This document shows, piece by piece, positions 2,269 through 29,058 of a stretch of 29,859 nt of DNA (the stretch's first letter is position 1; every line of letters begins with the position of its first letter). Where the stretch lies: IMG/VR virus record IMGVR_UViG_3300021137_000065, positions 1-29,859 of that record; one strand, 5' to 3'. The stretch comes from a virus. A model generated the notes under the pieces. The model was not told the origin of the DNA. It made no database searches and saw only the letters and a list, made by a program, of their open reading frames with translations. The position numbers and the translations under genes are program-made.

Positions 2269-3054
2269 ATGAAAAAAGATGCATTTTATTTTCCTCACTT
2301 TGCTAATGCAAGGCACGACAGGAAACTTAAAAGGGTACAAAAAGAATTAGGTTTAGAGGGTTATGCCATTTACTTTCAATTATTAGAAATTCTTAGGGAG
2401 CAATTAGATTTTAAATACCCATTAAGCGACATTGATTTATTGGCTGATGAAATGGGAACCAGTGAACCAAAAGTTAAAGCAGTAATTGTTAATTATGACC
2501 TTTTTACTTTAGATGAGCAAGACAACTTTTTCAGTATCAAACAATTATACTATTTGCAACCTTACATAGAAAAGACACAAAGGGCAAGAATAGCAGCTAA
2601 TAAAAGATGGGATAAAGTTAATGATGATGCAAATGCAATGCAAATGCATAGCAAATGCAATGCCGATGCAATGCAAGGAAAGGAAAGTAAAGTAAAAGAA
2701 AGTAAAGAAAAGGAAACTAAACTAAAGGTTAGTAAAGGAAGTTCACTCACGCTTTTTAGTGAAGTTTTTAATGATATTAAAATATTTAAGTCTAAATTTT
2801 TGGGTACTCAATACGAACACGCTAATTTCGATTATTATTTTGAAGTGATTAAAAATTGGTCCGACTCTAAAGGCGAAAAAAAGAAAGATTGGATTGCCAC
2901 CGCAAAAAATTGGATGGCAAAAGATATGACAAACGGAAAATTTATTGATTTAAACTATAAACCAAATGCAAATACAAACTACTCAAAACAAGCTCCAAAA
3001 GTTACAATCGATCAGCTTGACGAAGCCTTTGCTAAACGCCGTCGTGAGTGGTAG
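2269..3054 (+). CDS. Replication initiator, DUF4373-like N-terminal domain
   Basis: Starting at 2269 this is 261 residues (MKKDAFYFPHFANARHDRKL...). The first ~100 residues match the DUF4373 / Lin1244-type winged-helix domain of phage and plasmid replication proteins. A low-complexity basic linker (KESKVKESKEKETKLK) follows, then a C-terminal region with IATAKNWMAKD, typical of the DnaD-like/helicase-recruiting end of phage initiators. An in-frame ATG at 2233 would add 12 hydrophobic residues and sits 11 bases after a strong Shine-Dalgarno; I prefer 2269 because family members begin near KKDAFYFPH. The linker DNA carries iteron-like repeats. It overlaps the next gene by 11 bases. Confidence 0.8.
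   Translation: MKKDAFYFPHFANARHDRKLKRVQKELGLEGYAIYFQLLEILREQLDFKYPLSDIDLLADEMGTSEPKVKAVIVNYDLFTLDEQDNFFSIKQLYYLQPYIEKTQRARIAANKRWDKVNDDANAMQMHSKCNADAMQGKESKVKESKEKETKLKVSKGSSLTLFSEVFNDIKIFKSKFLGTQYEHANFDYYFEVIKNWSDSKGEKKKDWIATAKNWMAKDMTNGKFIDLNYKPNANTNYSKQAPKVTIDQLDEAFAKRRREW
2627..2740 (+). repeat. Iteron-like repeats plus purine-rich tract: candidate origin
   Basis: ATGCAA occurs at 2627, 2633, 2638, 2655, 2666 and 2671, with near-matches at 2644 and 2660. The 13-mer GCAAATGCAATGC is exact at 2629-2641 and 2651-2663, 22 bases (about two helical turns) apart. Directly downstream, 2677-2740 is almost entirely A and G on this strand. Phage lambda has its origin inside the O initiator gene, with iterons followed by an A+T-rich, purine-asymmetric tract. 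The same order here, inside the linker of the putative initiator, suggests an origin. Confidence 0.5.
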
Positions 3055-3568
3055 TACAGGTGCAGTTTATAACGAGATGTGCCGTTTTAAAGAAAAAGGA
3101 GAAAATCTGCCATTAAAAGTTATTGAGTTAGTTCCTGTAAACGAAAGATTACCGGCATTAAAAGAACTTTACGGAGCAGAAAAAATAGCAGCAGTTTTAA
3201 GCGTTCAAATTACTCGAACATTAAATAATTTTAATTTAAGGGTTGGAATGAACTCCGAGCAAATAATGGATTTGTCTTATGCTATTTTAGATGAAGCAGA
3301 ACAGGATCAATTAGCTATTCAAGATATTTTTTTATTCTTAGACGGAATGGTAAAATTCAAATACGGGAAAGTTTATGACCGAATGGATATGCCTACATTC
3401 TTTGAGATGTTAGAAAAATACCGAGAAGAAAGGCATCAGGCTTATATAAATGGCAAAGAGGAAGCACACGCACAATTTAAATCAATGGGCGATAGCAACC
3501 GAACAAGCCAAGACATAGACAAAGAAGCTAATCGAAACGCAATGGCTAACTATTTAAAAACAAAATAA
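3044..3568 (+). CDS. Initiator-partner protein, DUF6633-like (possible helicase loader)
   Basis: The frame is open from 2966, but the first 26 codons lie inside the upstream gene. The best start is GTG at 3044 (MSGSTGAVYNEM..., 174 residues), overlapping the upstream stop by 11 bases; ATG at 3077 is the alternative. The middle (LRVGMNSEQIMDLSYAILDE, then FLFLDGMVKFKYGKVYDRMD) resembles a helical family found beside DUF4373 initiators in Bacteroidota phages. By position it could be the lambda P-like partner that delivers the host helicase; the sequence itself shows no ATPase motif. The C-terminus is charged (EEAHAQFK..., EANRNAMANYLKTK). Confidence 0.75.
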   Translation: MSGSTGAVYNEMCRFKEKGENLPLKVIELVPVNERLPALKELYGAEKIAAVLSVQITRTLNNFNLRVGMNSEQIMDLSYAILDEAEQDQLAIQDIFLFLDGMVKFKYGKVYDRMDMPTFFEMLEKYREERHQAYINGKEEAHAQFKSMGDSNRTSQDIDKEANRNAMANYLKTK

Positions 3569-10303: not shown

Positions 10304-11172
10304 TGAACAGTCAATACAAGAAATTGTATGCTCAAGGATTAAAAACTTATTCGCCTCAATTCAAAAAAGAATTGCAAAAACAGGTGGATGAGTTTTGTCG
10401 TACCCAAGATTTAAACGCAATCTCAAGTAAAGGCTTAAAAAAGACACTTTATTCGCTTCATATAGCAATGGGTACTAAAACGGCTGAAATGTCCTACAAA
10501 AGCCTAAAAAAGACCAAGAATGGCATTTTAGTAATAGAGCAAAAAGGTTGGCTTACTGATTTATGGCAAAATGTTATCACTCGTTACTTGGACCTTAAAG
10601 GATTAAGTCAATTAGTCGAAGAAATAACGAATACAACAAAAGAACAAATCCAAAGATTTTTAAAGAAAGGTATTTTAGAAGGGAAACCATTGCAACAAAC
10701 GATTAAAGAATTAAAGCAATCAGGAATAACCAACTATCGTGCCGAATTAATAGCAAGAACTGAAACCGGCAGAGCTGCCAATGTAGGTTCAATGATTGGC
10801 GCAGTTAGTACAGGATTAAAAACAAATAAGATTTGGATTTCAACTTTAGATGCAAGAACAAGAAGAATACCTCCGGATAAAACGGATCATTTAAATATGA
10901 ACGGAGTTGAGGTACCTATGGATGAAAGATTTGAAGTTTTTGGAGTAGATGGTACTGAATTAATGCTACATCCTTGCGATTCTACGGCTTCGGCTGCTAA
11001 TACTTGTAATTGTCGTTGCACAATCGGATATAAAGTTGTAAAAGATAACAACGGAGATTATATAACTTATCAAGATGAACCGCCTCAAGGCGATGTTGGG
11101 CAGATATGGAGATTGCTAACCGATTCACACAACAACGATATTTATACGCATATCATTCAAGCATTACAATAA
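10303..11172 (+). CDS. Minor head protein (SPP1 gp7 / Mu F-like)
   Basis: A 289-residue head morphogenesis protein. The second half has the family signature: NYRAELIARTETGRAANVG (about 148-166), KIWISTLDARTRRI, the DHLNMNGVEVP turn and finally NTCNCRCTIGYKVV with closely spaced cysteines. Members bind the portal and are packaged in a few copies in the prohead, affecting DNA ejection or head assembly. The N-terminal 130 residues are helical and lysine-rich. The position between portal and protease is standard for this module. Confidence 0.88.
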   Translation: MNSQYKKLYAQGLKTYSPQFKKELQKQVDEFCRTQDLNAISSKGLKKTLYSLHIAMGTKTAEMSYKSLKKTKNGILVIEQKGWLTDLWQNVITRYLDLKGLSQLVEEITNTTKEQIQRFLKKGILEGKPLQQTIKELKQSGITNYRAELIARTETGRAANVGSMIGAVSTGLKTNKIWISTLDARTRRIPPDKTDHLNMNGVEVPMDERFEVFGVDGTELMLHPCDSTASAANTCNCRCTIGYKVVKDNNGDYITYQDEPPQGDVGQIWRLLTDSHNNDIYTHIIQALQ

Positions 11173-11888: not shown

Positions 11889-12980
11889 ATGGAAAATTTA
11901 GAATTAATCAATGAAATGGCTGAGAACGTAAAAGGCTTAAAGGCTGACGTTACTGCTAACATTGACGCTGTAAAAAGCGAAATCAAAGTCGTAAAAGACG
12001 AAATGCAAAAGCAATTTGATGCTGCAACTGCTGCTCAAAAGAAAGCTGCTTCAACTGAAGCAAAATCTCTTTCTCAATTAGTAGAAGAGAAAATGGAAGG
12101 TCGTATGGAAGAAGCTGAACAAACTTTGAAAAAAGGTGGTAAGTTCCGTTTGGAAATGCCTGAAGCTAAGACAATGACAATCGCAGGTAACGTAACCGGC
12201 GACCCTGTAATGACTTACTCTCCAAGACAAGCCTTACAACCAGCTCAATTAGTAAACTTCCGTGATTTAGTACCTACTGTACGTTCTGCAACAGGTCTTT
12301 ACACTTTCTTCAAAGAAAACACAGGAGAAACTAATAACATCGCTATTCAAACTGAAGGTGCTGCTAAAGGTTCTAACGATTACAACTTGACTGAAACTAA
12401 GATGGTAAACTCTTATATCGCAGGTTTCTCTCGTTTCTCTAAGCAAATGATGCGTTCATTACCTTTCTTAAGTCAAACTTTACCAAGATTATTACAGAGA
12501 GATTTCTTCAAAGCTGAAAACGCTTCTTTCTTCGGTACAGTTTCTGCTGCTGCAACAGGTGTTACTACAATGACTGAAACAGTTGACTTAAAGCAATTAG
12601 TACAATTAATCGCTAACCAAAAGGCTGCAAACTTTAACCCATCTTTCATCTTAGTATCTCCTGCTCAACAAGCTCGTATTTTGATTGACACAATCAATAG
12701 CGGTTACTACGTTGGTTCAGGTAGCGTACAAGTTGGAACAGGTGGCGACATCACTATTTGGGGTGTTCCTGTTGTTTCTGCAACTTGGGTTACTGATAAC
12801 AAAGCATTAGTAATTGATGCTGACTACATCGAGAGAATCGAAGTAGAAGGAATTGCAATTGAGTTCGCTTATGAGGATAGTGATAACTTCCAAAAGAACT
12901 TAGTAACTGCGAGAATTGAGTGCTACGAGGCAATCAACTTAATGTTACCAAATTCAGCAATTTATGCTTCTTTAAACTAA
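11889..12980 (+). CDS. Major capsid protein (HK97 fold)
   Basis: A 363-residue capsid subunit. Residues 1-~85 are a charged coiled coil (ADVTANIDAVKSEIKVVKDE), equal to the HK97 delta/scaffold domain removed by the protease. The mature part includes PRQALQPAQLVNFRDLVPTV, FKENTGETNNIA, the A/P-domain-like FNPSFILVSPAQQARIL and a late ALVIDADYIERIEVEGIAIE strand. Codon choice differs from the neighbours (AAC, TTC, CGT and GTA preferred), consistent with very high expression. The gene is followed by a strong terminator. Confidence 0.95.
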   Translation: MENLELINEMAENVKGLKADVTANIDAVKSEIKVVKDEMQKQFDAATAAQKKAASTEAKSLSQLVEEKMEGRMEEAEQTLKKGGKFRLEMPEAKTMTIAGNVTGDPVMTYSPRQALQPAQLVNFRDLVPTVRSATGLYTFFKENTGETNNIAIQTEGAAKGSNDYNLTETKMVNSYIAGFSRFSKQMMRSLPFLSQTLPRLLQRDFFKAENASFFGTVSAAATGVTTMTETVDLKQLVQLIANQKAANFNPSFILVSPAQQARILIDTINSGYYVGSGSVQVGTGGDITIWGVPVVSATWVTDNKALVIDADYIERIEVEGIAIEFAYEDSDNFQKNLVTARIECYEAINLMLPNSAIYASLN

Positions 12981-28668: not shown

Positions 28669-28732
28669 TATCTTTGCTATGTTGTTTATCATAGTTGGTT
28701 TCCCGTTAGTCTAAAAAGCTAACGGGTTTTTT
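28669..28732 (+). ncRNA. Candidate small RNA unit A
   Basis: Box TATCTTTG (28669-28676) is followed within about 25 bases by an intrinsic terminator. In between is a 5-bp hairpin CTATG (28677-28681) with CATAG (28690-28694). A transcript of roughly 50-55 nt would result. There is no clear TTTG box at normal spacing, so the unit may be just the operon's terminator with a chance box. Confidence 0.35.
28702..28732 (+). terminator. Intrinsic terminator of the rightward operon
   Basis: CCCGTTAG (28702-28709) pairs perfectly with CTAACGGG (28719-28726), a 9-base loop, then six T. The stop codon of the minus-strand HNH gene (TAG, 28711-28713) lies in its loop, so the insertion ended right here. Confidence 0.93.
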
Positions 28733-29058
28733 CTTCCATATCTATTTTTTAATCTACCATTTTTAGATGCGTGAATCATATTTTCCTTTTCAGTAACCCA
28801 CTCTAAATTTGATAACTTACAATTTTGTTTATTACAATCTTTATGATTTACTTGAGGTAAGTTAAAAGGGTTATTAATAAAGTTTTCTGCAACTAATCGA
28901 TGTACATATTTAGTATAAAATCTGCCATCTTTTCTAAGTCTTACAAATAAATAACCTATGCCATTGTTTGCAGGAGATAAAAATCTATTTCTAAATGAAG
29001 TAAAAACATTACCATCTTCGGTAATAAAGTAATTTGGAAATCCTTTAATGGGTTTCAT
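28711..29058 (-). CDS. HNH homing endonuclease with NUMOD4 domain
   Basis: A 115-residue protein on the opposite strand, the only minus-strand gene clearly seen. The N-terminal NUMOD4 motif is KPIKGFPNYFITEDGNVF; the HNH core is VHRLVAENFI then QVNHKDCNKQNCKLSNLEWV, with the His, Asn and paired cysteines typical of this family. It introduces a double-strand break to copy itself to empty alleles. Its placement between a terminator and a bidirectional promoter region lets it avoid interrupting a gene. It is a complete free-standing element; no intron is visible. Confidence 0.92.
   Translation of the reverse strand: MKPIKGFPNYFITEDGNVFTSFRNRFLSPANNGIGYLFVRLRKDGRFYTKYVHRLVAENFINNPFNLPQVNHKDCNKQNCKLSNLEWVTEKENMIHASKNGRLKNRYGRKNPLAF

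Follow-up and report, generated by a model that had tools for sequence, protein, structure and literature searches.

Origins of replication located inside the gene of their own initiator have been described before. In phage lambda, four iterons followed by an A+T-rich tract lie in the middle of the initiator gene O, and O binds through its amino-terminal half (PMC7466680, PMC4488673). In RepA_N plasmids such as pSK41, four Rep boxes lie centrally in rep, in the part that encodes a dispensable linker, and the N-domain and the origin were exchanged together in the chimeric pPR9 (PMC5703833). Short repeats are also known, namely, the triplet 5'-TA(A/G)-3' repeated next to initiator boxes in the DnaA-trio element of bacterial oriC and a repeated 5-nt motif in the unwinding element of V. 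cholerae ori2, which is read by RctB (PMC10797057).

Here, we focused on a candidate origin in a virus contig of unknown host (IMG/VR record IMGVR_UViG_3300021137_000065), which was analyzed over its whole length of 29,859 nucleotides (referred to as the window here). A preliminary description had proposed a lambda-style origin in the linker of a DUF4373-like initiator gene, based on ATGCAA repeats, an exact 13-mer occurring twice 22 bases apart, and an adjacent purine-rich tract. Our results support this interpretation, although origin activity is inferred. The repeat unit, however, is 11 bp rather than ATGCAA or a 13-mer, the purine tract is a pentamer repeat, and the likeness to lambda is one of layout and not of homology. 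What is new is the 11-bp step, the pentamers, and a short N-domain motif that matches the iteron class in assignable genes. Literature searches, which covered open-licence papers only, found no report of DUF4373 or DUF1376 genes holding origins.

An 11-bp array and a 5-bp periodic tract in the initiator gene

The array and the tract lie within a gene that carries an N-terminal Lin1244_N domain and matches a phage family of replication initiation proteins (Table 1). Cultured relatives are annotated as replication initiators. DUF4373 or DUF1376 genes lie directly upstream of DnaB or DnaC-like genes in several cultured phages, although the gene after the initiator in the window has no assigned function. 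Only PF14297 was found in Pfam, with no hit to RepA_N (PF06970), and NCBIfam gave no hits. Foldseek searches of the full AlphaFold2 model and of the N-domain against the PDB returned only weak winged-helix-like hits, so that no structural family is claimed, and a profile search of PDB sequences gave nothing convincing.

Table 1. Features of the window discussed in this study, with their positions and supporting evidence.
Position	Strand	Feature	Evidence
178		Single DnaA box TTATTCACA	The only one in the window; 2.4 kb upstream of the array
2269..3054	+	Replication initiator gene, 261 aa, Lin1244_N (PF14297, formerly DUF4373)	PF14297 E=7e-11, 43.2 bits (cut-off 25); phrog_2562 'replication initiation protein' E=1e-17
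2299..2613	+	N-terminal domain (residues 11-115), proposed DNA-binding domain	AlphaFold2 pLDDT mostly above 90 in residues 21-90; fold hits to winged helices only weak, best E=0.1
2593..2610	+	Pre-iteron motif A-A-N-K-R-W (residues 109-114) at the end of the last N-domain helix, proposed specificity determinant	Motif class matches iteron class in assignable genes; motif codons vary synonymously
2620..2763	+	Disordered linker (residues 118-165) containing iterons and tract	pLDDT below 50
2627..2676	+	Iteron array: four 11-bp units (2627, 2638, 2649, 2660) and a partial unit (2671)	Self-match at lag 11; synonymous conservation
2675..2740	+	5-bp periodic purine tract (TAAAG)n, proposed DNA unwinding element	Best lag-5/10/15 match and purine maximum of the window; stop-avoidance pattern
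2761..2934	+	C-terminal helical domain, exchangeable between relatives	Predicted helices in residues 165-222; swapped between the window and a relative (L010)
28711..29058	-	ORF that by eye looks like an HNH/NUMOD-type homing endonuclease	On the strand opposite to nearly all other genes

The six ATGCAA repeats of the array (eight in the gene) and the 13-mer GCAAATGCAATGC, found at 2629 and 2651 and nowhere else in the record, were confirmed. In register, they form a tandem array with the units ATGCAAATGCA, ATGCAAATGCA, TAGCAAATGCA, and ATGCCGATGCA plus the partial unit, so that the 22-bp spacing of the 13-mer is two units. Each unit spans about one helical turn and, since 11 is not a multiple of 3, the units fall in codon phases 1, 0, 2, 1, and 0. 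The following 66 nt contain 56 purines, the highest value in the window, and repeat with a 5-bp step, where every third unit, whose TAA would be in frame, loses mainly that T. Over the whole window, the best self-matches at lags 5, 10, 11, and 15 all start at 2627-2675.

To assess whether this pattern could arise by chance, we redrew the codons of this one gene synonymously. Two copies of the 13-mer appeared in 0.3% of trials and eight or more ATGCAA in 0.8%, whereas an unbroken purine run as long as the observed one (14 nt) appeared in every trial. Purine richness alone is thus explained by the Lys/Glu peptide, but the 5-bp period, judged over the family, is not. For the window gene taken alone the protein-preserving test described below is only marginal, and the strong evidence is comparative. 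GC skew, which the preliminary description had proposed as a test, was uninformative in this short contig with nearly all genes on one strand, being positive throughout with no switch near 2.6 kb.

Selection at the DNA level

The main test put forward in the preliminary description, conservation of the repeats at the DNA level despite synonymous freedom, came out clearly positive. Of 65 viral relatives, we compared 16 of the more diverged ones with the window codon by codon. Where the amino acid is the same, the codon is the same in about 97% of cases in the array, against about 45-75% over most of the rest of the gene. In 19 distinct genes with the peptide DANAMQMHSKCNADAMQ, every codon is invariant except one Ala, whose wobble base is position 2664, inside unit 4, and in 21 genes with FNDRSTTVQ, which belong to another iteron class, only one Val wobble base varies.

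In order to avoid choosing genes by their repeats, we then collected initiators by N-domain profile, Pfam model, or tblastn, which yielded 33 clusters at 60% identity. Each gene was compared with 200-500 versions in which synonymous codons were permuted, a null that keeps the protein and the codon use. Lags 5, 10, 15, 20, and 25 and lags 11 and 22 stand out, while the other lags stay near expectation. In a rerun, 17 of 33 clusters passed p<=0.01 at lag 5, 13 at lag 11, and 22 at either, so that 11 of 33 show neither period, whereas control ORFs from the same loci that do not overlap the initiator gave 0 and 2 of 62. In all nine clusters with both periods (p<=0.02), the 11-bp array comes first. 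The unit sequences differ and include ATGCAAATGCA, CCGTTCAACGA, TTCAACCACAG, ATTCCGGAGTG (Vibrio phage 1.155), GGGTCATGANN (E. coli phage mEp515), TTCGGACANAC, and GCATTGCCAGA. As a positive control, the same scan found the known iterons of lambda O at lags 20, 23, and 24, codons 112-123, at the same place in the gene. TP901-1 Rep shows no 5- or 11-bp period, and the pattern TTCAACCA at an 11-bp step was found in no viral contigs. DUF4373 genes were also found on two Bacillota plasmids of 36.6 kb and 45.8 kb (NZ_CP042244 and NZ_CP054611), which are possibly phage-plasmids that use this type of initiator.

The pentamer tract shows a pattern of stop avoidance. In 59 tracts whose consensus pentamer contains TA(A/G), the T is present in 68% and 83% of units when out of frame but in 5% when it would start an in-frame codon, while the other four bases match equally well in every phase (3.5-3.8 of 4). 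In Vibrio phage 1.155, for example, the series is CAGAC TAGAT TAGAT CAGAT TAGAT TAGAT AAGAA, with the first, fourth, and seventh pentamers in frame. The absence of in-frame stops is forced by coding, and the informative part is that the rest of the unit is kept. The amino acid pattern KESKVKES is thus what remains of a DNA pentamer repeat after stop codons are excluded. Given that the set was restricted to tracts with TA(A/G), the likeness to the DnaA-trio triplet (PMC10797057) is suggestive only; the step here is 5 nt and not 3, and no DnaA box lies near. Compared with the 5-nt motif of V. cholerae ori2, the motif, the initiator, and the replicon are different.

Frame and protein INDEPENDENCE

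A 21-bp piece of the array occurs in 47 IMG/VR contigs. Nearly all copies lie in linkers of initiator-type genes, among them genes with DUF1376 and other N-domains, and some are in another frame. In one contig (L194; L numbers are our labels for individual sequences), the piece lies at the 3' end of a gene at 10371-11096 (- strand) that does not look like a Lin1244_N or DUF1376 initiator and whose C-terminal part by eye resembles a DnaA DNA-binding domain. A 25-bp piece of the unrelated CCGTTCAACGA class occurs in 39 contigs, in frames 0/1/2 in 24/6/9 cases and in several N-domain families, mostly at residues 115-150. Profile comparison relates the Lin1244_N and DUF1376 N-domains (hhalign E=6e-6, probability 85%). 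The initiator of L179 carries a reversed iteron-like 11-bp array inside the N-domain coding region (codons 81-95), besides the one in the linker.

Exchange and stand-alone occurrence of the modules

L051, L056, and L057 are nearly identical in DNA from the purine tract to the end, but their N-domains (30-38% identical) and iterons are unrelated, the break lying between iterons and tract. A chimera of this kind is known in plasmid pPR9 (PMC5703833). The window and L010 show the other swap, with the same N-domain, iterons, and tract but a different C-domain. We relied on these swaps and on the motif described below, because the simple correlation of N-domain and iteron distances is positive (partial r 0.44) but so is that of the C-domain (0.29).

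Modules of iterons and pentamers also stand in intergenic DNA. L191, a 15.4-kb fragment in which no initiator was found, carries the array followed by (CAAGA)n pentamers in a gap between two other genes (3158-3267). In L284, from a 57.2-kb phage, an intact CCGTTCAACGA array is followed by pentamers with consecutive TAAA units that no reading frame could tolerate (about 2940-3020). The initiator of that phage (in L354), 11 kb away, has the motif AGLKSAAKR and only a remnant of the array in its linker, so that the origin seems to have left its gene. L188, a phage whose initiator carries the ATGCAAATGCA iterons, has a second copy of that array at about 12140-12190, apparently intergenic and without pentamers.

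A motif associated with the iteron class

The residues just before the array, at the end of the last N-domain helix, follow the iteron class rather than the N-domain family. R[WY] is found before 38 of 43 ATGCAAATGC arrays and 0 of 43 CGTTCAAC arrays, while AG is found before 42 of 43 CGTTCAAC arrays and 2 of 43 of the others. With five motif and five iteron classes, all 106 genes with both assigned agree (e.g., AAxxRW with GCAATGC and AGxxSAxxR with TTCAAC), as do all 18 combinations at the N-domain cluster level (permutation p<=5e-5). A TCCGGAG pattern gave mixed, partly noninitiator contexts and was not used for this rule. These classes were defined after looking. A prediction was written down beforehand for unseen cultured DUF1376 phages, to which Bacillota PF14297 genes were added under the same rules. 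This gave six genes with a motif, of which three were assigned and all concordant, three were below the two-copy threshold, and none were discordant. One counter-case is Acetobacter phage phiAX1, which has GCAAATGC repeats without the RW motif. Linkage alone is a poor explanation for the association, given that motif codons vary freely at synonymous sites (diversity 0.5-0.8, Trp aside) while iteron codons do not, and that in the L284 phage the motif matches an array 11 kb away.

Proposed function and alternative explanations

Taken together, we consider it most likely that the segment 2627-2740 is the replication origin of the phage and works like lambda ori or the pSK41 origin, although no binding or replication data were found for any member and binding, strand opening, helicase recruitment, and origin activity are inferred. 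In the proposed order, the N-domain, with the helix ending in AANKRW, binds four iterons stacked on one face of the DNA helix; the complex strains the DNA; the adjacent (TAAAG)n tract opens; one strand is held in 5-nt steps by the initiator or a partner; and the C-domain brings in the helicase loader and the helicase. The element is not a member of either family by descent, since it has no lambda O or RepA_N domain. Lambda iterons are 18-19 bp at 20-24-bp steps, against an 11-bp step here. For the RepA_N plasmids, no pentamer tract or motif rule is mentioned in the section consulted (PMC5703833).

An alternative is an autoregulatory operator or partition-like site bound by the initiator rather than the origin. 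An operator that controls the initiator gene would share several of these features, iterons bound by an initiator can also act in control, and the intergenic copies in L188, L191, and L284 would fit regulatory sites. We consider this alternative unlikely, because the array lies about 360 nt inside the gene and is coupled to a 5-bp purine tract, and because the order of iterons and then an asymmetric tract is that of lambda ori (PMC7466680). Even less likely is that the repeats are merely a by-product of a Lys/Glu/Asn/Ala/Gln-rich peptide in an A+T-rich genome. The linker is predicted to be disordered and the purine run length is expected from the peptide, but periods of 11 and 5 do not fit codons, the same DNA is read in all three frames, synonymous sites are frozen, and modules stand in intergenic DNA, which refutes this explanation for the family. 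A slippage-born microsatellite without function would fit tandem short units in a low-complexity neighborhood but is equally improbable: unit-specific differences (TAGC in unit 3 and the odd middle of unit 4) are kept over relatives that differ at about half of their other synonymous sites, unrelated unit sequences share the same 11-bp step and a similar gene position, and such arrays were rare in the control ORFs.

A further-reaching possibility, which we regard as about as likely as not, is that phage initiators of several N-domain families use a transferable recognition code. In this code, a 6-10-residue motif at the end of the last N-domain helix (AAxxRW, AGxxSAxxR, AGxxGMxxRW, SGxxGAxxRW, or SMTSN/K) would specify the iteron core (GCAATGC, TTCAAC, ATAACA, GGCTAT, or GTCATGA), stacked about one per helical turn next to a tract of TA(A/G)NN pentamers that is captured as single strand in 5-nt steps.

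The origins of most phages have not been located. If this holds, the origin and its likely binding specificity can be read from the initiator gene for many phages with DUF4373 or DUF1376 initiators, a large part of them uncultured. It gives a clear case of overlapping DNA and protein constraints, where stop codons are avoided inside a DNA repeat, explains a recurrent low-complexity linker, and offers a natural series of matched protein motifs and DNA sites for asking how initiators choose their origins.
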